Assembly (NCBI GenBank): GCA_903834765.1
Contig: CAILKE010000067.1
Coordinates: 1-63,846, forward strand
Source of the DNA: an uncultured Bacteroidota bacterium
GTDB taxonomy: Bacteria > Bacteroidota > Bacteroidia > B-17B0 > Aurantibacillaceae
DNA length: 63,846 nt
Direction of reading: 5' to 3'
The notes under the pieces are model-generated. The model did not search any database, had not been told where the DNA came from, and was given only the letters and a program-made list of their open reading frames with translations. Both the position numbers and the translations under genes were made by a program. Positions 16,027 through 34,793 of the stretch are shown here, one piece after another (position 1 is the stretch's first letter; each line of letters begins with the position of its first letter).

Positions 16027-17358
16027 ATGCAAAAACTATTTACTGAATTTAATGCAACTACTGCTCAACAGTGGAAAGAACAATTGATTAAAGATCTAAA
16101 AGGAATTGATTACGATACCCTTGTATGGAAAACCAATGCAGGATTGAATATACAACCCTTTTATACCTCCGAAACGACAACACAAAAAACACCTTTAGTA
16201 TTTTCGCATAACGATTGGGCTATTTGTGAATACATCTTAGTGAAGAATGAAAAGGAAGCCAATACTCATGCCTTGAATGCATTATCAAACGGCGCTTCTG
16301 GAATAGTGTTTGTGATTGATCAAAAAATTGACAGTGCCATTTTATTAAAAGGAATCTCTGTTCAGCATATTTATACCTTATTTAAAATTTCTTATGCATT
16401 TGTTGAGGAGCTTCAAAATACTCTTCAATCCATTGAATGCGGCAATCAATGTTTTATTGATACAGATGTGATTGCACATTTAGCTCAAACTGGTAATTGG
16501 AATTCATCTCAAGAAAAAGATTTAGATTCTCAAAAATTTAATTCTACACTTGTTATTGATGGACGCTTATATCAAGAGGCAGGAGCTAACATCATAAATG
16601 AATTAGCTTTCACTTTATCTCAGTTGAATGATTATTTAGCCTATCATTCTGAACATAATTCTTTAACGACTATAAAAAAAGTACATCTTTCTGTTTCGGT
16701 TGGTGGAGATTTCTTTATGGAAATAGCCAAACTACGAGCCTTACGTAATTTAGTTAACTTTTTATTAAATCAATATAAATTAAAATCGGAAGTTCATATT
16801 CATGGACAATCAACCTCTATTAATAAAAGTTCAATTGATAGTTATACTAATATGCTTCGTTCTACAACAGAGGCAATGAGCGCTTCTATAGGTGGATGCG
16901 ATAGTATTGTTGTGTTGCCTTTTGATGCTTCATTTAATGAGCCGACAGATTTCAGTATGCGTATGGCTCGTAATCAACAATTGATTTTAAAGGAAGAAAG
17001 TTATTTGAATAAAGTAGCAGATATGGCTGCAGGATCTTATTACATTGAAAATACAACAAAGACACTTTGTGAAAAAGCTTGGCAGCAATTTAAACACATT
17101 GAAAGCAAAGGCGGATTAATCGAAAGTTTAAAAGCAAATATCATTCAAGATATTATTACGAAAGATGCTGAAACCCTTTTGAATCAAGTAGAAGTAGGTA
17201 AAGTTGTTTTAGTAGGTGTTAATAAATTTCAAAATAAAGCAGAAGTCATCCATGATATTATTAAAGAAACCGTTTCAAAAATAAACGCTAAAACATTGAT
17301 CAATCCTATAAAGGAAATAAGGTTAAGTGAAAGTTTTGAAAAGGTACATTCAAATTAA
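16027..17358 (+). CDS. mutA: Methylmalonyl-CoA mutase small (beta) subunit
   Basis: Non-catalytic partner of the MutB subunit in the adenosylcobalamin-dependent conversion between (R)-methylmalonyl-CoA and succinyl-CoA. At 443 aa it is somewhat shorter than many MutA proteins. It keeps the TIM-barrel region with SVSVGGDFFMEIAKLRALR and a degenerate FNEPTDFSMRMARNQQ matching the mutase active-site strand. It lacks a complete C-terminal B12 domain, as expected of small subunits whose B12 site has decayed. It precedes mutB by 39 bases in the same direction. Confidence 0.93.
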   Translation: MQKLFTEFNATTAQQWKEQLIKDLKGIDYDTLVWKTNAGLNIQPFYTSETTTQKTPLVFSHNDWAICEYILVKNEKEANTHALNALSNGASGIVFVIDQKIDSAILLKGISVQHIYTLFKISYAFVEELQNTLQSIECGNQCFIDTDVIAHLAQTGNWNSSQEKDLDSQKFNSTLVIDGRLYQEAGANIINELAFTLSQLNDYLAYHSEHNSLTTIKKVHLSVSVGGDFFMEIAKLRALRNLVNFLLNQYKLKSEVHIHGQSTSINKSSIDSYTNMLRSTTEAMSASIGGCDSIVVLPFDASFNEPTDFSMRMARNQQLILKEESYLNKVADMAAGSYYIENTTKTLCEKAWQQFKHIESKGGLIESLKANIIQDIITKDAETLLNQVEVGKVVLVGVNKFQNKAEVIHDIIKETVSKINAKTLINPIKEIRLSESFEKVHSN

Positions 17359-17397
17359 AACATCATTGATCAATTCATTTTTTAAGACAAAGAAGGC

Positions 17398-19527
17398 ATG
17401 CGTAAAGATTTTTCAAATATAGAATATAACCAAACTGTCATTTCGAGCGGAGACGAGAAACAACAAGCTAATTTTTTAACTCCCGAACAGATAGAATTAA
17501 AGCCTCAATACACAGCTAACGATTTATTTGAAGCAGAGCACTTAAATTTTGGGGCGGGTGTGCCTCCTTTTTTACGCGGTCCATACTCAAGTATGTATGT
17601 TCAAAATCCTTGGACTGTAAGACAATATGCAGGTTTTAGTACTGCTGAAGAAAGTAATGCGTTTTACCGTCGTAATTTGGCAGGTGGACAAAAAGGATTA
17701 TCTGTTGCTTTTGATTTGGCAACACACCGCGGTTATGATAGTGATCATGAGCGAGTAGAGGGTGACGTTGGTAAAGCAGGTGTTGCTATCGATTCTATCT
17801 TAGACATGAAAGTATTATTCGATCAAATTCCGCTCGATCAAATGAGTGTGAGTATGACCATGAATGGTGCTGTTTTACCAATACTTGCTTTTTATATTGT
17901 AGCTGCCGAAGAGCAAGGAGTTGGCATGGATAAATTAACAGGCACAATTCAAAATGATATTTTAAAAGAATTCATGGTGCGTAATACCTATATCTATCCG
18001 CCTGATGCTTCTATGAAGATTATTGCTGATATTTTTGAATTCACGTCGCAAAAAATGCCAAAGTTTAATTCTATTTCTATTAGTGGTTATCACATGCAAG
18101 AAGCTGGAGCAACTGCTGATATAGAGTTAGCATACACTTTAGCAGATGGCTTAGAATATATCCGCACAGGAATTAAAGCAGGATTAGATATAGATGCATT
18201 TGCGCCTCGCTTATCATTTTTCTGGGCAATTGGCATGAACCATTTTATGGAGATTGCCAAAATGCGCGCTGCACGTATGTTGTGGGCTAAAATGGTTAAA
18301 CAATTTAATCCTAAGTCTGCTAAATCAATGGCATTGCGAACGCATTGTCAAACAAGCGGTTGGAGCTTAACTGAACAAGATCCTTTTAATAATGTGGCTC
18401 GTACTACAATTGAGGCATTGGCAGCGGCAATGGGACATACTCAAAGTTTACATACAAATGCCTTAGATGAAGCGATTGCCTTGCCAACAGATTTTAGCGC
18501 ACGTATCGCTCGTAACACGCAAATCTATTTACAACAAGAAACCAATGTTTGCAAAGTGGTTGATCCTTGGGGAGGTTCGTATTATGTGGAATATTTAACT
18601 CAACAAATTACCGAAAAAGCATGGGCATTAATTGAGGAAGTTGAAAAGTTGGGAGGCATGGCAAAGGCAATAGAAACTGGTATTCCGAAGATGCGTATTG
18701 AAGAAGCAGCTGCTCGTAAGCAAGCACGCATTGATGGAGGTAAAGATATCATCGTTGGTGTTAATCAATACCAAACCGAAGAAAAAACAACGATTGAAAT
18801 TTTAGATGTTGATAATGCAAAAGTGCGTACGCAACAATTAGAACGTTTAGCAACATTAAAAGCAGAAAGAAATCATACTGAGGTTGAAATTGCTTTAAAT
18901 GCTTTAACTGAAGCCGCTAAAACTAATCAAGGTAATTTATTAGAATTAGCTATTAATGCAGCTCGTGTGCGTTGTTCGTTAGGAGAAATTTCATTAGCAC
19001 TCGAAAAAGTATATGGTCGTTATAAAGCTAATATACGTAGTATTTCGGGAGTATATAGTAAGGAAATAAGTATGGATAAATATTTTTTACAAGCAAAAGA
19101 ATTGGCAGATAAGTTTGCTGAATTGGATGGTCGTCGCCCACGCATTATGATTGCGAAAATGGGACAGGATGGACATGATAGAGGCGCTAAAGTTATTTCA
19201 ACTAGTTTCGCTGATATGGGCTTTGATGTGGATATTGGTCCTTTATTTCAAACACCGGCAGAAGCAGCTAAACAAGCTGTTGAGAACGATGTACATATTT
19301 TAGGAGTGAGCAGTTTGGCGGCAGGTCACAAAACCCTTATTCCACAAGTCATCGCAGAACTTAAAAAATATGGTCGTGAAGATATTATGGTAATTGCGGG
19401 TGGCGTTATTCCTCAACAAGATTATGATTTTCTTTATAAAGCAGGTGTATCAGGTGTTTTTGGACCAGGAACTATTATTAGTAAAAGTGCCATTGATATT
19501 TTAGAGAAGTTGATCGAGAGATTGTAG
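17398..19527 (+). CDS. mutB: Methylmalonyl-CoA mutase large (alpha) subunit
   Basis: Catalytic subunit, 709 aa, normal for the family. The N-terminal TIM barrel has [15 protein letters not shown], the substrate motif [13 protein letters not shown] and [15 protein letters not shown]. The C-terminal cobalamin domain (about 575-705) has [11 protein letters not shown], whose His is the lower cobalt ligand (DxHxxG), and [11 protein letters not shown]. Residues about 14-21 (TVISSGDE) are encoded by a DNA stretch (17437-17460) that looks like one arm of the genome's REP-like palindrome (compare 46969-46992), an odd insertion in the otherwise conserved N-terminal arm. No epimerase or MeaB chaperone gene is in the window. 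Confidence 0.97.
17437..17460 (+). repeat. REP-like half-element inside the mutB reading frame
   Basis: These 24 bases match the left arm of the palindrome at 46969-46992 at about 20 of 24 positions (shared core TTCGAGCG, then AG-CGAGAA). They are translated in frame as part of the MutB N-terminal linker. The match suggests that a repeat arm was captured by the gene, but coincidence cannot be excluded without a genome-wide copy count. Confidence 0.45.
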
Positions 19528-24267: not shown

Positions 24268-25410
24268 TTAGTATCCTTTTAAATCAATAGTGTTGCCATT
24301 AATTAAGGTTGCGCTCTTCCCCATTTTTTTCTGAATAACTTTAAAATGATGTTCTTCTTCAGGACTCACTAAGGAAATAGCTTCACCAGAAGATTCCGCT
24401 CTGCCAGTTCTGCCAATTCGGTGAACATAATCTTTTGGAGAACGAGGTAATTCGTAATTAATTACATAAGGTAAAAATTTTATATCTATACCACGTGCCA
24501 TTAAATCAGTGGCTACAAGTACTCTTATTTTTCCCGATTTAAATAAACTTAAAGCTTCAGTTCGAGCCTCTTGACTTTTTTTACTGTGGACCGCGTATGC
24601 ATCAATTCCATTGGCGTTGAGCTTAACAGCTACAGCATCGGCTCTATGAACAGATGACGTAAATACTAATACTTGTTTTATTTTATTTTGTTTAATAATG
24701 TAGCGCAGTAAGGGGCCTTTTTTTTCTTCTGTGATTAAATAAGCAAATTGTTTTATTAAGTCTAAATTTTTAACCTCTTCTTCAACTTTAACAACAATAG
24801 GGTTGCGTAATAAATTTCTGTTAATGTTGTTTAAGTCATCACTCAAAGTGGCTGAAAATAATAGGTTTTGACGTTTTTTAGGTAGTAAACCAAATACCTG
24901 AGTCATCTCTTCTTTAAACCCTAGATTAAGCATTTTATCAGCTTCATCAATCACTAAAATTTTTACAGCCGATAAAGAAACAGCTCTTGTAGAAATTAAT
25001 TCTAATAATCGTCCGGGTGTTGCTACCAATATCTCAACACCTTGCAAGGCTATCATTTGAGGGTTAATAGCTACGCCACCAAATACTGCTAAACTTTTTG
25101 TTTTTTCTGGTAATTTATTGCTTAAGGCTTTAAATACTTCATTTACCTGCATGGCAAGTTCTCTGGTTGGAACTAATACCAATGCTTTAATGTGTCTGTT
25201 TTTAGTAGTTGTTTGTGTTTGAAATTGTTCTAATATGGGTAAAACAAAGCTGGCAGTTTTACCTGAGCCAGTTTGAGCGATTCCTAAAATATCTTTGCCT
25301 TCTAAAATGGCTGGTATAGCTTCAGTTTGAATAGGATAGGGCTTAGCATAGTTTTGCTCAGCTAAAGCTATTTGTAAAGCAGGTGATAATCCAAGAGAAG
25401 AAAATGGCAT
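24268..25410 (-). CDS. DEAD-box RNA helicase (RhlE-like)
   Basis: ATP-dependent RNA helicase, 380 aa, consisting of the two RecA-like domains with almost no C-terminal tail. Seen in order: Q motif (PFSSLGL...YPIQTEAI), AQTGSGKT (Walker A), PTRELA, TPGRLLE, DEAD, SAT, and in domain two VLVATDLMARGIDI and HRIGRTGR. Short, tail-less members of the RhlE group act in ribosome assembly or RNA turnover, often at low temperature; the specific substrate is not known. The start (MPFSSLGLSPAL) places the Q motif in the expected position. Confidence 0.93.
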   Translation of the reverse strand: MPFSSLGLSPALQIALAEQNYAKPYPIQTEAIPAILEGKDILGIAQTGSGKTASFVLPILEQFQTQTTTKNRHIKALVLVPTRELAMQVNEVFKALSNKLPEKTKSLAVFGGVAINPQMIALQGVEILVATPGRLLELISTRAVSLSAVKILVIDEADKMLNLGFKEEMTQVFGLLPKKRQNLLFSATLSDDLNNINRNLLRNPIVVKVEEEVKNLDLIKQFAYLITEEKKGPLLRYIIKQNKIKQVLVFTSSVHRADAVAVKLNANGIDAYAVHSKKSQEARTEALSLFKSGKIRVLVATDLMARGIDIKFLPYVINYELPRSPKDYVHRIGRTGRAESSGEAISLVSPEEEHHFKVIQKKMGKSATLINGNTIDLKGY

Positions 25411-25533: not shown

Positions 25534-25572
25534 TTAAACTTTTTTCTATTTTAAATGTTTAGTTTACATTTG
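25534..25572 (+). promoter_or_regulatory. carH promoter with putative operator
   Basis: TACATTTG at 25565-25572 is an exact -7 box ending 10 bases before the TTG start codon, so the transcript has almost no leader. Just upstream, TTAAAC (25534-25539) and GTTTAG (25557-25562) are separated by exactly 17 bases. The same TTAAAC-N17-GTTTAG arrangement occurs at 33602-33630 in the divergent folE/photolyase promoter. AAATGT (25553-25558) and ACATTT (25566-25571) also form an inverted repeat overlapping the -7 box. Autoregulation through these repeats is inference. Confidence 0.5.
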
Positions 25573-25582
25573 ACTTTAAATA

Positions 25583-26470
25583 TTGAAACAGAAAGGAACA
25601 TATTCGATTAAAGACCTTGAGCAATTTTCAGGCATTAAGGCACATACCATTCGTATTTGGGAAGTTCGTTATGGGTTATTAAAGCCTAGTAGAACTGATA
25701 CTAACATTCGTTATTACGATGATGAGCAATTAAAACGTTTGTTAAATATTTCGTATTTAATAAAAAATGGATTAAAGGTTTCTAAAATTAGCTTGATGGA
25801 TTCCAATGAGCTTTACGATATCTTGACTTCTTTTTATAATGGCCAAGAAAAGGATCAGTCAACTGATGATAAAATAAATAATCTAGTAGTTGCTATGATT
25901 GATCTAAATGAAGATTTATTTGAAACCGTATTTTCTTCTGCAGTTCGCCATTTAGGATTTGAAAATGCTGTAACAAAGGTAATTTATCCTTTTTTGGATA
26001 AAGTAGGTCTGCTCTGGACAATGGGGAATATTCAGCCAGCACAAGAGCATTTTATCAGTAATTTAATACGACAAAAAATAATAGTTGCTATTGATAAACA
26101 ATCTATATTTAAAAATCCAATTTCTAAATTTTTGTTGTTTTTGCCTGAAGGCGAAATGCACGAAATAGGCCTATTATTAGCTAATTATATGATTCGTGAA
26201 AAAGGTAATCAAACTATATATTTAGGGCAAAATGTACCTTTAGAAGATGTATTGCAGGTTTGTGATACTTACGCTCCTAATTACATTTTCAGCTATATTA
26301 CCATACCTCGAGCGGAAGAAGAATTAAAATCTTTTTTTGATAAATTATCGAATTCTGTAAAAAAAGGCAAGGTACTTGTTTCAGGCAATTTACCAGAAAT
26401 CTCATTTAAGTTGCCCGCTAATCTTAAGCGTGTAACATCCATAAAAGATTTAGCTAAAATTTTAGAATAG
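25583..26470 (+). CDS. carH: CarH/LitR-type MerR regulator, B12-dependent photoreceptor
   Basis: A 295-aa transcription factor. Residues 6-75 are a MerR winged helix (YSIKDLEQFSGIKAHTIRIWEVRYG). Residues about 90-180 are the four-helix cobalamin-cap domain with the Wx9EH motif (W145, E155, H156). Residues about 183-290 are a Rossmann B12 domain with ExHxxG (E191-H193-G196), whose His can ligate cobalt. In CarH proteins, adenosylcobalamin in the dark makes DNA-binding tetramers, and light breaks the Co-C bond and releases the DNA. The start is TTG, set 10 bases after an exact -7 box. It faces the photolyase operon, which it probably represses in the dark (inference). Confidence 0.88.
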   Translation: MKQKGTYSIKDLEQFSGIKAHTIRIWEVRYGLLKPSRTDTNIRYYDDEQLKRLLNISYLIKNGLKVSKISLMDSNELYDILTSFYNGQEKDQSTDDKINNLVVAMIDLNEDLFETVFSSAVRHLGFENAVTKVIYPFLDKVGLLWTMGNIQPAQEHFISNLIRQKIIVAIDKQSIFKNPISKFLLFLPEGEMHEIGLLLANYMIREKGNQTIYLGQNVPLEDVLQVCDTYAPNYIFSYITIPRAEEELKSFFDKLSNSVKKGKVLVSGNLPEISFKLPANLKRVTSIKDLAKILE

Positions 26471-26483
26471 TATTTTATATTTC

Positions 26484-26579
26484 CTATTCTTTTTTTTGTT
26501 TTTCTTGAAGTGCTAAGTAAAATCCTATTGCAAATATTATTGTAATAAGTGAAGCGAAATATGGTATTATATCTGCCAT
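26484..26579 (-). CDS. 31-aa single-helix membrane protein
   Basis: A tiny gene whose protein (MADIIPYFASL...) is one hydrophobic helix of about 20 residues (Ile/Phe/Ala-rich) followed by a charged tail (QEKQKKE). It starts one base after the stop of the 58-aa membrane gene, so the two form an operon. From memory, similar pairs of tiny membrane proteins occur in other Bacteroidota, with no known function. It lies between carH (convergent) and the cryptochrome gene. Confidence 0.5.
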   Translation of the reverse strand: MADIIPYFASLITIIFAIGFYLALQEKQKKE

Positions 26580-26580
26580 T

Positions 26581-26757
26581 TTATTTAGATTGAATAAGTT
26601 TTAAATAAATCCCAAATGCTAATATTGAAGGAACCCAAATTCCAATAAATGTTGCATTTTCTTTTTCTCCTAGATAAAATAATATTTCAGAGAATATTAA
26701 CGAAAGTAAAGCAGCTAAAAAAAGCAACTTGTCTGATATTGTAAATTTTTTAAACAT
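26581..26757 (-). CDS. 58-aa two-helix membrane protein
   Basis: A small protein starting MFKKFTISDKLLFLAALLS, with helices at about 9-30 and 37-55 joined by a short polar turn (GEKENATF) and a conserved-looking WVPSILAFGIY. It is encoded 63 bases downstream of cryptochrome DASH on the same strand and immediately upstream of the 31-aa gene. Readthrough from the photolyase operon is possible. The function is unknown. Confidence 0.6.
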   Translation of the reverse strand: MFKKFTISDKLLFLAALLSLIFSEILFYLGEKENATFIGIWVPSILAFGIYLKLIQSK

Positions 26758-26820
26758 TTTTTATTATATTTTTAATTAACTGTTACTATTAAGACAGTTT
26801 AATTACTAAATTGTTTAAAA

Positions 26821-28122
26821 TTATTTTAAATAATTATTTAACCACAAATTTCTAAACTCTTTTTTAGCATCGTAATCATGAGCTTGCTTTTCAATATTAA
26901 AAACTCGGTTTCCACGTGGATCGTTTCCTACACCTGCTAAATAAGCCCAATTTCCCCAATTGCTGCAAACATCATAATCTATTAATTGCATTTCAAAATA
27001 AGCAGCGCCATAGCGCCAATCTAATTTTAAATTGTTACATAAATAGCTCGCTACGTTTTGGCGGCCGCGGTTACTCATATAACCAGTATGTTTAAGCTCT
27101 ATCATATTTGCGTCAATAAAATCAACCCCTGTTTGTCCGTTAATCCAAGTTTGTAAAGCTTCGTTGTTATGCTGATGTAAATTATCTGTTTTTGTTTTTA
27201 AACCAGTTTGTTGAAAAAACTTATTCGAATATTTTTTCATCATAAACCTAAAGTAATCACGCCACAGTAATTCAAATTCTAACCAATACGTCGATTCGTT
27301 TGCTGAAAATTGAGCTTCATATTTTTTTAATTCATAATAAATTTCACGCGGCGACAAACAGCCGATGGCTAACCACGCCGAAAATTTAGTAGAATAATTT
27401 TCGCCTATCATTCCGTTACGAGTTTCTTTATAAGTAGAAATAGCATGTGTTTTAAAAAAATAATTTTTCAATCTTTTATAGCCTTCAGTTTCTCCTCCTT
27501 TAAAATCAATAACCGCTCGGCAATCTTTAGTAATGTTATCTAAACCTAATTGTTCTATTCTAGGTAAATTTAGCTCATCAATCATTGGCGAATTGATAAT
27601 ACTTGGCATTAAAAATACTTCTCTAATAGTAGATTCTTTTTCAATTCGTTTTCTGAAACTTGTAAATATATCAGGTATATCTTTTAGTGCAAAAGGTAAA
27701 TCTTGCGCATGGTACAAAGTGCTTGTACTGAAGGTTTCGAGAGGACAATGTAATTTCCATAGTTCTTTTTCTACCTGCATTTGAGTTTGCTTCTCTTCAT
27801 AGGCAACTTCTTTTTTACTAAATACTTTTCGAACATTATATTTTTTTACAAGTTTAAATAATTCTTCTTCTGGTTTTCCTCTCACAATAATTAAACCCGA
27901 GCCGCAATTACGTAGGCTTTTATCTAAATCAACTAAAGATTCTAATAAAAATTGTGTTCTGAAATTTCCTGTTTTATTAAATCCAAATTCGGTTGCTTTA
28001 TAATGAGCTTCGTCAAAACAATACACAGGTATAATTTCATCGCTTTGTTCAATAGCTCGAACTAAGGTTTCGTTATCGTGAAGGCGTAAATCGGTTTTAA
28101 ACCAAACGATGGAAGTTTTCAT
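26821..28122 (-). CDS. Cryptochrome DASH family protein
   Basis: Flavoprotein of the photolyase/cryptochrome superfamily, 433 aa. The N-terminal alpha/beta antenna domain starts IVWFKTDLRLHDNETL, and the C-terminal FAD-binding domain has SNRGRQNVASYL, LDWRYGAAYFEMQLIDYDVCSNWGNW and AGVGNDPR. The last two stretches are typical of the DASH clade. DASH proteins repair cyclobutane dimers in single-stranded or looped DNA, use FAD and usually a methenyl-tetrahydrofolate antenna, and may also act in signalling. It lies 11 bases downstream of the FeS-BCP photolyase and is the last large gene of the operon. Confidence 0.92.
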   Translation of the reverse strand: MKTSIVWFKTDLRLHDNETLVRAIEQSDEIIPVYCFDEAHYKATEFGFNKTGNFRTQFLLESLVDLDKSLRNCGSGLIIVRGKPEEELFKLVKKYNVRKVFSKKEVAYEEKQTQMQVEKELWKLHCPLETFSTSTLYHAQDLPFALKDIPDIFTSFRKRIEKESTIREVFLMPSIINSPMIDELNLPRIEQLGLDNITKDCRAVIDFKGGETEGYKRLKNYFFKTHAISTYKETRNGMIGENYSTKFSAWLAIGCLSPREIYYELKKYEAQFSANESTYWLEFELLWRDYFRFMMKKYSNKFFQQTGLKTKTDNLHQHNNEALQTWINGQTGVDFIDANMIELKHTGYMSNRGRQNVASYLCNNLKLDWRYGAAYFEMQLIDYDVCSNWGNWAYLAGVGNDPRGNRVFNIEKQAHDYDAKKEFRNLWLNNYLK

Positions 28123-28133
28123 TTATTTAAAAT

Positions 28134-29684
28134 TTAAAGTTCATTTATGTGTTTTAAATAGTAATCTGCTTGTTCTAATATTTCCGCTTTGGCTTTAGGC
28201 TCCATGCGTCGCCACACATTATACATCATACCTATGCGAGGATTTTTCGATAATTTTGATTCGTGCTTATCATAAAAATTCCAATACAAACTATTAAATG
28301 GACAAGCTTTATCACCCGTTTTTTTTGATTTATCATAATAGCATCCTGCACAATACGAACTCATTTTATTAATATAGGTTGCTGAGCTCACATAGGGTTT
28401 TGAACCTACAATACCACCATCTGCAAATTGACTCATGCCACGAGTATTTGTAATTTCAACCCAATCAAACGCGTCTATATAAATTCCTAAATACCACGCA
28501 TCTACTTCATCAGGATTTACACCTGCTAACAAAGCAAAGTTGCCAGTTATCATTAAACGCTGTATGTGATGAGCATAAGCAAATTGTAACGATTGAGTAA
28601 TAGCATTTTTCAAACAATTCATTTTTGTTTTGCCTGTCCAAAACCACTGCGGTAATTTTTCGGTATGTTCAAAATAATTAAGTGTGGCGTATTCGGGCAT
28701 TTTGAGCCAATAAATCCCACGCATGTATTCTCTCCAACCAATTATTTGCCTCACAAAACCTTCTAATTGATTGTATTCAATCTCATCCGGTCTTTTATTA
28801 TACTCCGAAATAGCTCTATTTACAACCTCTTGTGGTGAGAGTAATTTTGTATTCATTGAAAACGATAGTCGTGAGTGATACAACGACCATTCGTTTGGTG
28901 CCATAGCATCTTGAAAAGTGCCAAACAATGGCAAACAATTTTCCACAAAATAATCTAGTAATTTTATTGATTGTTCTTTATTTATTGGCCATAAAAAATT
29001 CTTAGAATCAACAGTTCCAATCGTTTTTATAGTTGTTTTCTTCAGCTCGGCTTCAATTACAGTAACATTATTAGTAAATAAATAGGGTGCTGTTGGTTTA
29101 TGTTCTTTAGGTAACTTTTGTCGATTATCTTCATCAAAATTCCATTTCCCATGCAAAGGTTTATCACCATCGATAATAAGTACTTGATGTTTTTTTCGCA
29201 TGTAACGATAAAAGGTTTCCATCAAATACAATTTTTTGCCTTCAAATAAATTACCTAATTCCTTGCGAGTGCTATAAAAATGTTCAGTATCAAATATATT
29301 TGATTTTATATTTAGAGATTTAGCATAATTCTTTAAATGCTCATCAACTCTATACTCATCGGGAAGTTGGTACTCAAACTGCGTGAAATTATTTTTTAAA
29401 ATAAGTAAATCACAATTTTTATCAAAGCGTTGTAAATTGTTTTTATCGTTTAACTTTATATAAATAATGTTGTGTTTTTGTTGTTTTAATTCTTCTGAAA
29501 ATTGCTGCATAGCTGCAAAAATTCCAAGTACCTTTTGTATATGATGTTGCGCATAATCAGTTTCGGTGCGTATTTCCATCATGACATAAGTAACTTTCTC
29601 ATCAACCGTTTTAAACCAAGAATGATTTATATTGAGTTGATCCCCTAATATCAGTCGCAGTATTTTGTTTTTTGTAATCGCCAT
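28134..29684 (-). CDS. FeS-BCP photolyase (prokaryotic 6-4 photolyase type)
   Basis: A 516-aa member of the photolyase-related (DPRP) family, begun by RLILGDQLNINHSWF. Four cysteines match the iron-sulfur ligands of this clade: one in KMNCLKNAI near residue 355, then CAGC near 444 and a Cys 12 residues further in KACPFNSLYW. The FAD pocket region includes HHIQRLMITGNFALL and DAFDWVEITNTRGMSQFADGG. Characterised members repair 6-4 photoproducts using FAD, a 4Fe-4S cluster and a lumazine antenna. Its start is two bases after the DUF2256 stop, implying tight coupling. Confidence 0.93.
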   Translation of the reverse strand: MAITKNKILRLILGDQLNINHSWFKTVDEKVTYVMMEIRTETDYAQHHIQKVLGIFAAMQQFSEELKQQKHNIIYIKLNDKNNLQRFDKNCDLLILKNNFTQFEYQLPDEYRVDEHLKNYAKSLNIKSNIFDTEHFYSTRKELGNLFEGKKLYLMETFYRYMRKKHQVLIIDGDKPLHGKWNFDEDNRQKLPKEHKPTAPYLFTNNVTVIEAELKKTTIKTIGTVDSKNFLWPINKEQSIKLLDYFVENCLPLFGTFQDAMAPNEWSLYHSRLSFSMNTKLLSPQEVVNRAISEYNKRPDEIEYNQLEGFVRQIIGWREYMRGIYWLKMPEYATLNYFEHTEKLPQWFWTGKTKMNCLKNAITQSLQFAYAHHIQRLMITGNFALLAGVNPDEVDAWYLGIYIDAFDWVEITNTRGMSQFADGGIVGSKPYVSSATYINKMSSYCAGCYYDKSKKTGDKACPFNSLYWNFYDKHESKLSKNPRIGMMYNVWRRMEPKAKAEILEQADYYLKHINEL

Positions 29685-29686
29685 AT

Positions 29687-29824
29687 TTATTTAATTTTTC
29701 TGCATTTATCACTGCAATATTTTACATCATTCCAATTCTTTTCCCACTTTTTTCGCCACGTAAATGGCTTATTGCAAGCGTCACATATTTTTGATGGTAG
29801 GTTTTGTTTTTTGACGCCTTTCAT
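29687..29824 (-). CDS. DUF2256 small zinc-ribbon-like protein
   Basis: A 45-aa protein. The sequence has the DUF2256 pattern: [10 protein letters not shown], then [15 protein letters not shown], then [10 protein letters not shown]. Two C-x-x/x-x-x-C pairs (ICDAC and YCSDKC) probably bind zinc, and the centre is rich in Trp, Lys and Arg. Genes of this family are frequently found beside photolyases, and their role is unknown. It ends two bases before the FeS-BCP photolyase start, which makes a role in handling DNA or loading a cofactor plausible, but that is inference. Confidence 0.88.
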
Positions 29825-29894
29825 GTTGATATTTTTTATTAATTAATATATCGTTAGTCTGTTTTTGTCATTTAGTTGTTTTAAAAAGTTTTTA

Positions 29895-31403
29895 TTAGTT
29901 CCTACGTTTATCTGTTTTCTTTTTCATAGTTAAATGTGATGTTGGATTATTGACATGCTTTTCTAAAATTCGTTTACCTTCTATTTTTACATCATCTTGT
30001 TTTCTAAAACTCCAAACAACATCACTTGCATACTTTCTTGTTTCGTCAATATTAACAATAGGTTCGGGGTAATCTAATCCTATATGACAATTATATATAC
30101 TTTGCTCAATTGCCGATAATTTCCAAGGTTCGTGTATAAATTCTGTTGGAACATCTTTTAATTCAGGAATCCATTGTTTTATAAATAAGCCATCAGCGTC
30201 ATGTTCTTCCGAATTTTTAATGGGGTTATAAATACGTATGGTATTAATGCCCGTTGTGCCACTTTGCATTTGTAATTGCGGATAGTGTATGCCTGGTTCA
30301 TAATCTAAAAATTGACGAGCTAGAAAATGAAGTTCTCGCCAATCTTGCCACAAATTAAACACAAAAAAAGAAACTACCATGGCGCGCATTCTAAAATTTA
30401 TATAACCCGTCGCTACAAGGCAACGCATACAGGCATCTACAAGTGGTACGCCAGTTTGCCCATTTTGCCATGCAGTAATATAAGTTTCGTTTTTAGGTTT
30501 AATTAAGCCGTTATATGCTTTATTTATATTTTCAAATTCATAACGGCATTCGTCTTCAAACTTTTGCATAAAATGGCAGTGCCAATGCAAGCGCGATACA
30601 AAATTTGTTATAGCTCTTTTATTATTTGATTCTTGGTAGTGTTGCTTTGTATATTGATATACCATCCGCATACTAATGTTGCCGTAAGTGAGGTATGGGG
30701 ATAAGCGACTACAACCTTTACGACTTAACAAAGGCTTGCTGATATGCTTACTGTAATTTTCAACTCGTTCTTTTATAAAACTATCCATGTAACGCCAAGC
30801 CCAATATTCTCCGCCTTGTTGGAAGTTTTTATTTCGTGTTATAATTTCTATAGGCAACACTTTTCCTCGAAGTGTATCATATAAATTCTGATTTAAGGTA
30901 ACGATATTCCAATGTGTTTCATCTATCAATTTTGGAGGCTCTGTCATTTTATCTTGCCATCTTTTTTCCCAATTGGTTCGTCTTTTTAATTTTCTAATAA
31001 CACCATGCAATTGGGTTTCATTCCACTCAATGCTATGCGATTTAAAAAAATGCTGCATAGATATATCTCTGTCGTAGGTTAATTTATTTCCAACTTCCTG
31101 ATGCGAAAAAACTGTTTTAATATTGTAGTGTTTTACGAGTTCGTTAAAAACCGTTTCTACTTCGTTATGAAATAGATGGATCTGTGCATTTAACGTTTTT
31201 AATTTTATGTTCATCTCAAGTAATGATTCATATACAAAACGCCAATGTCTTATATCGCTGTCGTGATAAGACATTACGGATGGTTCAAAAAAATAAATAA
31301 ACAGTATTGGTAGGTTTTGTTGTTGAGATAAAAATAATGGTTCGTGATCTGTAAATCTTAAATCACGTTTAAACCAAACAATATTAATGGCTGTTTTACT
31401 CAC
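29895..31403 (-). CDS. Deoxyribodipyrimidine photolyase / cryptochrome
   Basis: A 502-aa photolyase-superfamily protein. The antenna domain starts [18 protein letters not shown]. The FAD domain has [48 protein letters not shown] and [17 protein letters not shown]. It differs from the DASH and FeS clades in this operon and is likely a CPD-type or plant-like bacterial cryptochrome/photolyase; the exact lesion is not certain. The frame is open upstream to 31547, but those 48 residues overlap flavin reductase. The GTG at 31403 overlaps the flavin reductase stop by four bases (GTGA) and gives the usual N-terminus, so it is chosen. Confidence 0.9.
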
Positions 31404-32044
31404 AATGAGTTCAATTCCGACGTTTTTATAAATGGTTTCGCATAAGATAATCTCGCAATTTTTTCGGTACGGTGGTAACTGTCTAGCCCCGAAACGGTAA
31501 TGGTCCCTGCTTTTTCTAAATCCACAAACCCATCTGTTTGTATGCAATCTTCAGGTATTGACACTGATTTTATTTTTGCAATAATAATAATCGTCCCATT
31601 TTCTTGAATATCTATTTTTTGAGAAAAATTAGCCACTACTTGAATTTTACTTTCTTTTACGAAAGGAGCGTAGCACCCGGCTTTATATTCTTCGGTTAAA
31701 TGTGTTTCTTCAAACTCGCTAATATCTTTTGGATAGCGAGCAGAAGTTTGGTGTGCGTTTTTATAAAATGCTTCATGAACATGATTAACCGTGAATTCAC
31801 CTGTTTCTAAAATATTACTTAAGGTATGTCTATCAACAGAATCAGGACGAACAATGAATCCGAACATAGGTGGATTAGCGCCTATATGAAATAAAGAATT
31901 AAAAACTGCTAGATTAGTATTTCCTTCTCGACTTCTAGTGCCTATTAATGCTAAGCTTTTAAAGCCACCTAACGAATTTATAAAAGTGGCTCTAAAACGT
32001 TTCTCAAAAGCAAGTATATCGTTTAAATTAAATTCTTTGTTCAT
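31400..32044 (-). CDS. Flavin reductase (DIM6/NTAB) family protein
   Basis: A 214-aa FMN-binding split-barrel protein. [36 protein letters not shown] matches the flavin-binding strand-turn of the flavin reductase/flavoredoxin family, followed by [17 protein letters not shown]. It may supply reduced flavin, which photolyases need as FADH-, or act on another small molecule; this is an inference from context. It sits between the SDR gene (one base gap) and the photolyase gene (four-base overlap). Confidence 0.87.
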
Positions 32045-32045
32045 A

Positions 32046-32738
32046 TTAGTTTAGCTTTAAAGTACCCATTCCACCATCTACGGCAAGTATTTGACCTGTA
32101 ATCCAAGATGCTTTTTCGGACAATAAAAATACTATGGATTCAGCCAACTCTTCAGGTGTACCAACTTTTTTAAGAGGATTTCGTTTTTGTGAAGCTTCCA
32201 TTTTTTCTGTTGTATTTATAAACCGATCTGCTAGAGGCGTTTGAGTTAATGATGGTGCAATAGCATTAACACGAATATTAGGTGCTAGTTCAGCAGCTAG
32301 GGATTTTGTTAATCCTTCTAATGCACCTTTAGCCATTGCTATTGAGGTATGAAATGGCATACCGCTTTGCGCTGCAACCGAACTTATAAAAACAATAGAT
32401 GCATTAGAACTTTGTTTAAGTTGGTTATAATAACTTTGAACGCATAAAGCAGCACCTAAGGCATTAATTTCATAATCAATTACATATTCTTTGGCGGTAA
32501 ACCGGTGAAAGGGTTTTAGATTAATAGTTCCAGGGAAATAGACTAAGCCATCAATAACCCCATTAATACTAGGAAATAATGAGCTTTCGTATTTGTCTAA
32601 TTGATAAAATTCGTCGTATGGAAATGCATTTTCTTTAGTGGAAATTCCAATTACCTTATGACCTTCATTTTGTAAGATAATAGCAGTTTTTTCTGCCATA
32701 GCGCTGGAAGCCCCTGCAAATAGATATGTTTTACTCAT
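32046..32738 (-). CDS. Short-chain dehydrogenase/reductase
   Basis: A 230-aa NAD(P)-dependent oxidoreductase. The N-terminal cofactor motif is unusual (FAGASSAMAEKTA in place of TGxxxGxG). The remaining SDR features are normal: FISSVAAQ with the catalytic Ser, a shifted active-site region (SIAMAKGALEGLTKSLA, where the usual Tyr of YxxxK appears replaced), NAIAPS, and the end ITGQILAVDGGMG. The missing Tyr suggests altered or lost classical activity. It overlaps the DUF2805 gene by eight bases. SDRs of this kind recur in photolyase clusters. Confidence 0.85.
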   Translation of the reverse strand: MSKTYLFAGASSAMAEKTAIILQNEGHKVIGISTKENAFPYDEFYQLDKYESSLFPSINGVIDGLVYFPGTINLKPFHRFTAKEYVIDYEINALGAALCVQSYYNQLKQSSNASIVFISSVAAQSGMPFHTSIAMAKGALEGLTKSLAAELAPNIRVNAIAPSLTQTPLADRFINTTEKMEASQKRNPLKKVGTPEELAESIVFLLSEKASWITGQILAVDGGMGTLKLN

Positions 32739-33108
32739 ATTTTTTTCTTTTTGATATTTTATTAAACGTAATAGTGCGTTGGAGTGTGCATTTGAAGCGG
32801 TTTATGGAAGGGTTTCTAGTTTTTGCGTGTTTGGTTTTACAATTGCTGGCTCGTTCTCTCCATAATTTATAGCTTTTAAATTTTAAATGCTTTTTCATGA
32901 CTGCTTTCACCTCATTTTCACTTAGCCCAAATTGAATTTTAATAGCATCAAAGGTTGTTCTATCTTCCCAAGCCATTTCAATAATACGATTTATATCAAT
33001 GGTTGATGTTGCTTTTATAGGAATCTCTAATTCCTTTTCCATATAGGCCATAGGAGAAGGCAAATCGCTGTAATGGCAGTAATTATTATTATCTTCAGTC
33101 ATCATCAA
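32731..33108 (-). CDS. DUF2805 / TIGR03643 family protein
   Basis: A 125-aa, very basic protein. Its core (about residues 37-90) reads DINRIIEMAWEDRTTFDAIK followed by FGLSENEVKAVMKKHLKFKSYKLWRERAS, a helix-turn-helix-like pattern that is the hallmark of the DUF2805 family. The C-terminal 35 residues are Lys/Arg/Thr-rich and may touch nucleic acid. The family is common beside photolyases and its function is unknown. Three ATGs in a row allow starts at 33108, 33105 or 33102. It begins six bases after the SRPBCC stop. Confidence 0.85.
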   Translation of the reverse strand: MMMTEDNNNYCHYSDLPSPMAYMEKELEIPIKATSTIDINRIIEMAWEDRTTFDAIKIQFGLSENEVKAVMKKHLKFKSYKLWRERASNCKTKHAKTRNPSINRFKCTLQRTITFNKISKRKKYE

Positions 33109-33114
33109 ATTAAA

Positions 33115-33573
33115 TTATTGATTGAACAATTGATTTACTTTTTTATAACGGTAATCGAACACTTCTTTCAATTGTTTTTTTACAAATAATTCATTCGCTA
33201 ATTTTCCTAATATGCCTAAGGGTAATTTATAATGAACTAAATCATTCATCTCAATACCTTGAGCTGTTTCTATTAAAAAATGTTTATGGTGCCAAAATGC
33301 GTATGGGCCAAAGCGCTGTTCATCAACAAAATAATTTTTGTCTTTTACGTGGGTTATTTCTGTTACCCAATTTAACTTCACTCCTAAAATAGGGCTTACA
33401 TTGTACTCAATAATTTGTCCAGCATACATCGTATCTCCATGCAAATCATTTAATATCTTAAAGCCCATGTAATCAGGGGTTATGGTAGCAAGATTTTTTG
33501 GTGAACTCATAAAGTCCCAAACAGTATTTAGGTCACTTTTTATAAGTTGGCTAGTTTGTAAAGAATGTAACAT
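33115..33573 (-). CDS. SRPBCC (START-like) family protein, first gene of the photolyase operon
   Basis: A 152-aa helix-grip protein. It has the pattern SDLNTVWDFMSSPKNLATITPDYMGFKI near the N-terminus, the aromatic strand DEQRFGPYAFWHHKHF, and a C-terminal amphipathic helix (KKQLKEVFDYRYKKVNQLF). Such domains form a pocket for a hydrophobic ligand. Members with this motif set often sit at the head of SDR/photolyase clusters, and the ligand is unknown. Its promoter lies in the 78-bp gap shared with folE, with a TACATTTA -7 box enclosed by an inverted repeat. Confidence 0.87.
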   Translation of the reverse strand: MLHSLQTSQLIKSDLNTVWDFMSSPKNLATITPDYMGFKILNDLHGDTMYAGQIIEYNVSPILGVKLNWVTEITHVKDKNYFVDEQRFGPYAFWHHKHFLIETAQGIEMNDLVHYKLPLGILGKLANELFVKKQLKEVFDYRYKKVNQLFNQ

Positions 33574-33575
33574 GT

Positions 33576-33640
33576 TTTTGTTTAATAAATGTATTTATAT
33601 CTTAAACAAAATTGAATCGTAATTGTTTAGCATTAAACAA
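33576..33640. promoter_or_regulatory. Divergent promoter of the photolyase operon and folE with two inverted repeats
   Basis: Inverted repeat 1: TTTTGTTTAA (33576-33585) and TTAAACAAAA (33602-33611), 10 bp each, 16 apart. The 16-base interval begins with the minus-strand -7 box TACATTTA (33586-33593) of the SRPBCC-led operon. Inverted repeat 2: TTGTTTA (33623-33629) and TAAACAA (33634-33640), 4 apart, just upstream of folE (ATG 33652). Between the two, TTAAAC (33602-33607) and GTTTAG (33625-33630) repeat the 17-base spacing found at the carH promoter. A shared repressor is a natural reading but is not proven. Confidence 0.55.
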
Positions 33641-33651
33641 CTTGATATCTT

Positions 33652-34371
33652 ATGAAAAATAATTTAATAGAAATAAATACCTTGTTAAATGGTAACCGCA
33701 TTTCATTAAGCGAATTAACTATTGAGGAAATTGGCGATGAACATATCAGTACAGGTATTGAAACTCCAATGATGCCTCATGCTTTTGATATGAGTGATGA
33801 AGAAAAAATTCGTAAAATCGAATTTCATTTCAAAGAAATTATGGAGACGATGGGTTTAGACTTAAGCGATGATAGTTTAAAGGGCACACCAAATAGAGTG
33901 GCGAAAATGTATATACAGGAAATATTTAGCGGATTAAACCCAGCAAATAAGCCAAAAATCGCTTTATTTGAAAATAAATACCAATATAATCAAATGTTGG
34001 TTGAGAAAGATATTACGTTTTATAGTAACTGCGAGCATCATTTTGTACCCATTTTTGGAAAAGCTCATTTGGCTTATATATCTTCAGGAAAAGTGATTGG
34101 TTTATCAAAGCTCAACCGTATAGTTAATTATTATGCCAAAAGACCACAAGTTCAAGAGCGATTAACGATACAAATTGCAAAAGAAATGCAAGAGGCCTTA
34201 GGAACCGAAGATGTAGCCGTATTAATTGACGCTAAGCATTTATGTGTATCTTCGCGTGGTATTAAAGATAATAGTTCTGCAACAGTAAGCTCATATTATG
34301 GAGGCAAATTTGAAAACGAACAAGTAAGAAATGAATTTTTAAAATACATCGATTTAAAAACTAACTATTAA
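33652..34371 (+). CDS. folE: GTP cyclohydrolase I (type IA)
   Basis: Converts GTP to 7,8-dihydroneopterin triphosphate, the first step to folate and other pterins. A 239-aa cytoplasmic enzyme with an N-terminal extension of about 60 residues. Conserved motifs: YSNCEHHFVPIFGKAHLAYI (zinc Cys and catalytic His), GLSKLNRIV, RPQVQERLTIQIA and HLCVSSRGIKD (second zinc Cys). It is divergent from the photolyase operon. Methenyl-tetrahydrofolate is the usual antenna of DASH cryptochromes, so supply of a light-harvesting pterin is a reasonable but unproven reason for its location. Its stop overlaps the next ATG by one base (TAATG). Confidence 0.96.
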   Translation: MKNNLIEINTLLNGNRISLSELTIEEIGDEHISTGIETPMMPHAFDMSDEEKIRKIEFHFKEIMETMGLDLSDDSLKGTPNRVAKMYIQEIFSGLNPANKPKIALFENKYQYNQMLVEKDITFYSNCEHHFVPIFGKAHLAYISSGKVIGLSKLNRIVNYYAKRPQVQERLTIQIAKEMQEALGTEDVAVLIDAKHLCVSSRGIKDNSSATVSSYYGGKFENEQVRNEFLKYIDLKTNY

Positions 34372-34793
34372 TGTTTGTAAATCCAATTGATAAAGATAAA
34401 GTAGCTGAAAATCCAGGATTATTGCCATATGCGCACAATGTGGGCAGCATTTCTGTTAATCCAGAAGATGTTGGAAAGCTTAAATCTCGCGCTTTATCAG
34501 CTATGCAAGAGCAAACTACCAAGCAATTAGCTCAAATACAAAAGCAGGTAGAATTATTGGCTCAGCAGGCTATTGAAATTAAAAAGCGTATAGAAATTAG
34601 TGAGAAAATATATACAGCAAAGATGTCCTTCGAGCCTTTTGTGGGCAACGTATATTATTTATATGAGCAGGACGAAATATTTAAATTAATGTTAATTGCT
34701 CCAGATGAGTGGGGTAGATCAAAAAAAGAATCTCTTCATTTTATTGCGAGTGTTAGGCTTTTGAGCGATCATACTTGGGAAGTATTAAATTAA
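34371..34793 (+). CDS. DUF2452 family protein
   Basis: A 140-aa cytoplasmic protein. It shows the family's landmarks: NPGLLPYAHNVGS near the start, a Gln-rich helix predicted to be a coiled coil (residues 45-75; QLAQIQKQVELLAQQA), ISEKIYTAKMSFEPFVGNVYYLY, and PDEWG followed by VRLLSDHTWEV at the end. The function is not known. It is coupled to folE by a one-base overlap, and the pair ends at an 18-bp terminator. Confidence 0.88.
   Translation: MFVNPIDKDKVAENPGLLPYAHNVGSISVNPEDVGKLKSRALSAMQEQTTKQLAQIQKQVELLAQQAIEIKKRIEISEKIYTAKMSFEPFVGNVYYLYEQDEIFKLMLIAPDEWGRSKKESLHFIASVRLLSDHTWEVLN

Follow-up and report, generated by a model that had tools for sequence, protein, structure and literature searches.

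The stretch of DNA studied here (63,846 nucleotides, contig CAILKE010000067.1 of GenBank assembly GCA_903834765.1; below, the window) comes from the 3.63-Mb genome, in 79 contigs, of an uncultured member of the Bacteroidota, and it holds a gene for a CarH-like regulator (here called carH) beside an island of photolyase and cryptochrome genes. We propose that these genes probably belong to a light-induced photoprotection regulon, which the CarH-like protein would control both directly and via a sigma factor. A first interpretation, made from the letters of the window (the sequence-only reading), had seen in the island a light-switched module for DNA repair and photoprotection. This idea gains weight from the elements that carH and island promoters share in relatives, also where the two are unlinked, and we infer, with good support, that the island would be under light control. 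The sequence-only reading did not foresee a probable tier of extracytoplasmic function (ECF)-type sigma factors or the predicted inclusion of crtI and crtB, and its suggestion that the island makes its own flavin is not supported, since a flavin reductase reduces flavin and does not make it. A pterin link of the island, through folE, is plausible.

Open reading frame (ORF) calls and profile searches confirmed the genes named earlier: carH, a minus-strand run and a divergent folE-DUF2452 pair. The run, previously described as an operon, comprises ten ORFs when both tiny membrane proteins are counted, and converges with carH at its 3' end. A 78-bp divergent promoter (33574-33651) would serve folE-DUF2452 and the whole run, leaving carH alone outside it.

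25583..26470, plus strand: CarH-like MerR regulator with a B12-binding domain, TTG start (profiles and alignment)
26484..26579, minus strand: 31-amino-acid (aa) ORF, membrane protein by eye, final ORF of the run
26581..26757, minus strand: 58-aa ORF, membrane protein by eye; a homologue adjoins a photolyase gene in locus L157
26821..28122, minus strand: DASH cryptochrome (TIGR02765, 573.1 bits, above the cut-off of 317)
28134..29684, minus strand: FeS-BCP photolyase (PF04244, 233.9 bits) with all four Fe-S cysteines (C357, C445, C448 and C461)
29687..29824, minus strand: DUF2256, a 45-aa four-cysteine, zinc-finger-like protein (75.5 bits)
29895..31547, minus strand: photolyase/cryptochrome-family protein, ORF from TTG (profile)
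31400..32044, minus strand: flavin reductase-like protein (59.9 bits)
32046..32738, minus strand: short-chain dehydrogenase (SDR; profile)
32731..33108, minus strand: DUF2805/TIGR03643 (DUF2805, 112 bits; all-helical model, in which we read a helix-turn-helix)
33115..33573, minus strand: SRPBCC-like protein (an earlier label; no family match), recurrent island member
33652..34371, plus strand: folE, GTP cyclohydrolase I (TIGR00063, 231.8 bits, cut-off 181.6)
34371..34793, plus strand: DUF2452 protein (53.2 bits)

Elements at the carH and island promoters

Five elements were read in the two promoter regions, and the first two of the 78-bp promoter overlap through one middle half-site.

33576..33611: palindrome TTTTGTTTAA-N16-TTAAACAAAA, proposed CarH operator (motif scans)
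33603..33629: TAAAC-N17-GTTTA element, ECF-promoter-like, best match in the window of a matrix derived from carH
33623..33640: inverted repeat TTGTTTA-N4-TAAACAA, third repeat of the promoter
25535..25561, plus strand: TAAAC-N17-GTTTA element, ECF-promoter-like, its AAC 46 bp before the carH start codon
25565-25572: TAnnTTTG box downstream of the carH element, read by eye

The palindrome, read by eye as the full form of the GTT-N22-AAC arrangement described below, spans 36 bp in the window, where its arms are exact. It was the sole match there at up to three mismatches, a looseness at which 22 of 100 shuffles also matched. Across 3.6 Mb of relatives' loci, its core, GTTTAA-Ng-TTAAAC, occurred 84 times with a gap of 16 and 18 times with a gap of 17 (overlaps included), against zero to five matches at every other gap from 4 to 30. 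These 102 matches represent 100 distinct sites in 74 loci, which were fetched for carH or island genes, so that the tally is not genome-wide: 35 sites lie at ECF-type sigma genes, 18 at carH and 19 at further island genes; the remaining 28 are at other ORFs, some resembling crtI. The palindrome is carried by 26 of 41 carH-adjacent sigma ORFs and, in the Flavobacteriaceae-rich loci, by 13/82 island promoters versus 12/361 others.

We propose that the CarH-like protein, when carrying adenosylcobalamin in darkness, would bind the palindrome and block both divergent transcription units, and that light, by breaking the cobalt-carbon bond, would release it and allow transcription of folE-DUF2452 and of the ten-ORF run; the regulon would respond to both light and B12. 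CarH probably acts on its regulon directly and also through an ECF-type sigma factor, because the carH-adjacent sigma gene of many relatives carries the palindrome.

Could another dimeric regulator bind the palindrome, with CarH having no part in regulating the island? The 28 sites at ORFs other than carH, sigma and island genes, including a family of about 218 aa, are in keeping with such a protein. The 18 sites at carH itself and the frequency of the palindrome at carH-adjacent sigma ORFs speak for CarH instead, as does its half-site: TAAACA/TGTTTA was the top 6-mer upstream of carH (22/32, versus 195/867 for others), and it agrees with TnnACA, the motif known from CarH operators that have been studied (PMC9304148; statements from papers cited here by number are limited to the excerpts available to us). 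We therefore regard another regulator as very improbable. Members of the family of about 218 aa, for which searches gave no family name, follow the palindrome in L283, L285, L286, L288, L305, L311 and L318, and a family of about 142 aa does so in L284, L285, L305 and L318; both are possible further members of the regulon.

A second element, AAC-N17-GTT, was found upstream of carH in 29 of 41 discovery loci and 9 of 29 held-out loci (38/70 in total; for the held-out set, shuffles averaged 2.4 and 0/300 attained 9), as well as in 6 of 12 further carH upstream regions. In an even sample of 119 genomes of the class Bacteroidia (the class sample), with family labels typed for part only, it was present at 41 of the 97 island promoters that lie away from carH, compared with 66/691 others (p = 2.4e-14); each other gap from 8 to 27 was present in 3 to 12% of the island promoters. 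For these counts, intergenic gaps below 45 bp were dropped and overlapping regions merged. Among the FeS-BCP loci added later, L264 was excluded because it duplicates a locus of the class sample, and 17 loci whose phylum is different or unclear were set apart; neither element was enriched in those 17. AAC-N17-GTT is asymmetric, with an A/T run after AAC in 18/32 cases and before GTT in 3/32, which suits a promoter better than the binding site of a dimer. AAC would correspond to the -35 and GTT to the -10 part of ECF promoters; with such a pair at fixed spacing and oriented to the gene, the element is probably an ECF-sigma promoter. Our first reading of it, as the CarH operator, was given up for this asymmetry once the palindrome had been found.

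More distant relatives, mostly Flavobacteriaceae, have a different spacing: GTT-N22-AAC lies upstream of carH in 14 of 18 cases, and in Flavobacteriaceae-rich loci at 30/87 island promoters versus 28/347 others (gaps 22 and 23 combined, 33/82 versus 56/361), where AAC-N17-GTT is not enriched. At Flavobacteriaceae carH genes, the TGAACA part overlaps the start codon (ATGAACAAT); we kept this spacing because island promoters show it too, mostly away from start codons.

A symmetrised matrix, built from carH upstream regions while AAC-N17-GTT was still taken as the CarH operator, found its best window match in the 78-bp promoter, which was outside the training set. A site within a coding gene (6441-6479, score 15.3) beats the carH site (13.6), so the matrix score alone is not specific. 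Over 19.5 kb around the crt genes of this genome, the matrix scored highest at two sites: one precedes crtB, and the other precedes the presumed crtI start and falls within the longest ORF called there. With AAC-N17-GTT at carH, the 78-bp promoter, crtI and crtB, the predicted regulon of this genome comprises carH, the island, folE-DUF2452, crtI and crtB. A photolyase gene on contig C4 was rejected as a member (weak match of 9.6 at its start, three better sites elsewhere in that stretch).

The third repeat of the promoter, TTGTTTA-N4-TAAACAA, is the only zero-mismatch copy reported in the genome and was absent from all 32 carH upstream regions; at up to two mismatches it was no commoner in the window than expected by chance (3 versus 3.02), and it was rejected. 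A further k-mer from island upstream regions, TGGCGAAA, was dropped as well, as it was taken for DUF2256 coding sequence.

Several observations weigh against the circuit proposed here. The tandem 11-bp TnnACA repeats of canonical CarH operators were not found, and an operator of that kind was rejected: the spacing of 11 was not enriched (1/32 carH upstream regions, 15/867 others). The window has 42 copies of the lone half-site TTGTTTA, no more than shuffled sequence gives (39.1). The strict palindrome occurs in 1/97 class-sample island promoters, namely the window's own, and direct CarH control would therefore be exceptional there. AAC-N17-GTT is unevenly spread over families (DUF2805 14/25, PF04244 6/11, FolE 0/6 and DUF2256 4/19), was not enriched in 62 new FeS-BCP loci (10/87 versus 23/354, p = 0.09) and persists in 13 of 17 discovery loci that have no adjacent sigma gene; in the class sample, element types at carH and at the island agree weakly per genome. 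No ECF-type sigma gene was found in the window or in four other stretches of this genome, the whole of which was not searched.

Alternatively, the island might be light induced through an ECF sigma factor that senses singlet oxygen or a membrane signal, with CarH controlling only carotenoids and itself and its adjacency being incidental. The promoter-like asymmetry of AAC-N17-GTT agrees with such an arrangement, as does its frequency at class-sample islands, which almost always lack the strict palindrome. On the other hand, the window's promoter has a palindrome with exact arms, which also recurs at carH-adjacent sigma ORFs and at Flavobacteriaceae-rich island promoters in the numbers given above, and we consider this alternative unlikely.

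Neighborhoods of carH and the CarH-like protein

The surroundings of carH (6.5 kb either side, in 41 loci including the window's) contain a sigma factor gene in 26 loci, photolyase in 13, crtB in 12, crtI in 10, Nudix in 9, folE in 8, SRPBCC-like genes in 6, SDR in 5 and flavin reductase in 4. Pfam or NCBIfam matches identify one sigma gene as well as the crtI, crtB and Nudix homologues of this genome; labels for the other clusters were given by eye. By our own estimate, assuming about two photolyase genes per 3.5 Mb, chance would place fewer than one of the 41 loci near a photolyase gene; photolyase, folE and crt genes occur close to carH far more often than this estimate. A sigma gene lies within 1.3 kb of carH in 24/41, 6/29, 4/12 and 0/18 loci of four carH sets. 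The window's locus has neither a sigma nor a crt gene; crtI and crtB are on another contig.

The protein itself matches MerR_1 and B12-binding_2 above their cut-offs and B12-binding (PF02310) below it (20.4 of 32.1); the PF02310 (Rossmann) part does align to CarH of Thermus thermophilus, with its His kept, and we count both B12-binding domains as present, along with the DNA-binding domain of the MerR type. Since it scored 118.5 bits, missing the 400-bit cut-off of the NCBIfam equivalog NF052513, we call it CarH-like rather than CarH. Homologues are present in 70 of the 119 class genomes at E ≤ 0.001 (67 without the weak MerR-domain matches of G021, G033 and G102) and, among the 80 named genomes described below, in 46 of the 50 that were searched.

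Both adenosylcobalamin-sensing motifs noticed earlier, W-x9-EH and ExHxxG, can be read directly in the protein. All four residues of the adenosylcobalamin pocket (W131, E141, H142 and H177 in Thermus numbering) are present in it and in 68 of 70 homologues (individually, 69, 69, 70 and 69 of 70). The residue that argues against a photosensor is His132, which is Thr in the window and His in 1/70 homologues. Illumination of T. thermophilus CarH makes His132 the upper ligand, and most of the protein remains tetrameric if this residue is lacking (PMC10442372). Because other light-responsive CarH homologues also lack it (PMC11796333), we read the loss as a class-wide variant that does not disprove light sensing, and His132 was not treated as defining for CarH or class I LitR. 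In the DNA-binding domain (KAHTIRIWE), 69/70 homologues have a His at the position of a Thermus Glu, a change in line with a different operator.

Two side observations concern this locus. A methylmalonyl-CoA mutase pair, an adenosylcobalamin enzyme, is encoded 6 kb from carH (16027-19527), and a DEAD-box helicase gene (24268-25410) is divergent from carH across a common 172-bp intergenic region, with a member of that family within 6.5 kb of carH in 7/41 loci.

DUF2256 and DUF2805 as companions of photolyases

The class sample contains DUF2805 in 41 genomes, PF04244 in 35, DUF2256 in 41 and a PF03441 photolyase in 74. DUF2256 accompanies PF04244 in 35/35 genomes and is found in 6/84 others (p = 2.8e-24). 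Within the 74 photolyase genomes the ratio is 35/35 with PF04244 versus 6/39 without (p = 3.1e-15), and presence and absence of the two are also concordant within 15 families of mixed status. Its association with other photolyase classes, assigned by hand, is less sharp (long 22/26, DASH-like 22/23, short 8/9). Of 80 named PF04244 loci, 51 had DUF2256 within the fetched stretch and 20 of the other 29 elsewhere in the genome, leaving nine without (71/80 in total); the closest of these records, a metagenome-assembled genome (MAG) filed as Chitinophaga pinensis, has 81% FeS-BCP identity. The association extends to the Pseudomonadota, sampled (249 genomes) as the phylum of a Dechloromonas MAG: PF04244 and DUF2256 each occur in 52 genomes and both in 45 (p = 1.7e-34), with misses possible since at most 28 DUF2256 candidates were scored per genome. 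The two genes are at most 5 kb from each other in 22 of these 45 pairs; in 18 pairs they are on separate contigs or over 50 kb distant.

A role for DUF2256 as an Fe-S maturation factor was considered and rejected. A branch of 11 of the 35 PF04244 proteins (L040, L043 and L150 to L158) lacks all four Fe-S cysteines and is thus cluster free, yet all 35 genomes have DUF2256, which makes cluster assembly an unlikely role. Judging from these profiles, the most likely role of DUF2256 is that of an accessory protein to PF04244-type photolyases, with or without an Fe-S cluster. Its own cysteines (C14, C17, C37 and C41; CX2C-X19-CX3C) are invariant among 37 aligned of 41 sequences (the DUF2805 alignment likewise used 37 of 41 sequences, and that of PF04244 proteins 18 of 35). 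Foldseek ranked YacG first, without significance (E = 0.7), and a fold search with DUF2805 gave no significant match.

Membership of both families in the module, suggested earlier, is supported: for DUF2805 by its phylogenetic profile (33/35 PF04244 genomes) and its promoters (14/25), and for DUF2256 by profile and adjacency, its own promoters not being enriched (4/19). In the open PMC literature, as far as the portions available go, nothing tied DUF2256, DUF2805 or DUF2452 to photolyases.

As to the rest of the island, its families co-occur in shuffled order across many loci, more than by chance. The SRPBCC-like gene is present and recurrent, but its label has no profile behind it (the window protein matched no Pfam family even at E ≤ 1, and two homologues matched none at E ≤ 0.001). 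The two tiny membrane proteins exist as predicted, and their homologues stand side by side next to a photolyase gene in one other genome only among the loci examined (L157). The photolyase/cryptochrome ORF at 29895..31547 probably starts near 31430, since as called it overlaps the flavin reductase gene. Two further observations were made here. In four aligned proteins (window 33040-33108; L035, L059 and L070), the DUF2805 domain is preceded by a shared N-terminal extension that contains a C-x-YS-x-LPS-like motif, and a family whose L148 member matches DUF429 adjoins DUF2805 or PF04244 genes in L036, L044, L052, L059, L070, L134 and L148.

Known systems and light responses in Bacteroidota

One close parallel is CarH/class I LitR, as in T. 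thermophilus, Bacillus megaterium and Myxococcales, with which the window protein shares the MerR and B12-binding domains, Wx9EH and the lower ligand His177, as well as, by eye, the signature GxxW/EH/GxxH/GxxxP (GLLW, EH, GEMH and GQNVP). In those systems carH lies near carotenoid genes, as it does in the window's relatives; what differs is the near absence of His132, a palindrome instead of tandem 11-bp repeats, a photolyase island as target and the ECF-type sigma gene that adjoins carH in many relatives. The class II LitR regulon of Pseudomonas (PplR/PmlR) is reported to include light-induced phrB, cryB and folE, with an SDR gene in the phrB cluster (PMC9758184), but those LitRs retain just a single B12-binding domain of the two, work together with a LOV protein and govern another gene set in another phylum. 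A photolyase gene cluster is enriched in proteorhodopsin-bearing marine Flavobacteriia, for which the available part of the report describes no regulator or operator. The window's FeS-BCP protein resembles prokaryotic (6-4) photolyases (560 bits to 7ykn; PhrB), its four cysteines aligned, and differs in having DUF2256 as a genomic companion. DUF2256 has been grouped with DUF329 (YacG/zf-FCS) in the TRASH clan of zinc fingers (PMC4047054); it differs from YacG by a conserved WRKKW core and further Trp.

Only tentatively would we extend these findings to a two-tier B12 light circuit typical of Bacteroidota, with a CarH that lacks His132 and a palindrome on both an ECF sigma gene and repair genes, and to a requirement of PF04244 photolyases for DUF2256 across phyla; this wider proposal is possible, if somewhat doubtful. 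Among the matches listed in the open PMC literature, none named a CarH operator in Bacteroidota in its title or the start of its abstract (subscription journals were outside the scope). The elements described here thus offer exact, mutable candidate sites for light regulation in this phylum, and the homologues that lack His132 form a natural set with which to test how the photosignal leaves cobalamin. Two families of unknown function, DUF2256 and DUF2805, become tied to photorepair. A Chryseobacterium that produces carotenoids in response to light was reported to lack car or lit operon genes (PMC7064467). A MAG filed as Chryseobacterium gleum (L351, the genome of L257) has a CarH-like gene, and the sites described here would be a ready candidate explanation for those light-induced carotenoids.

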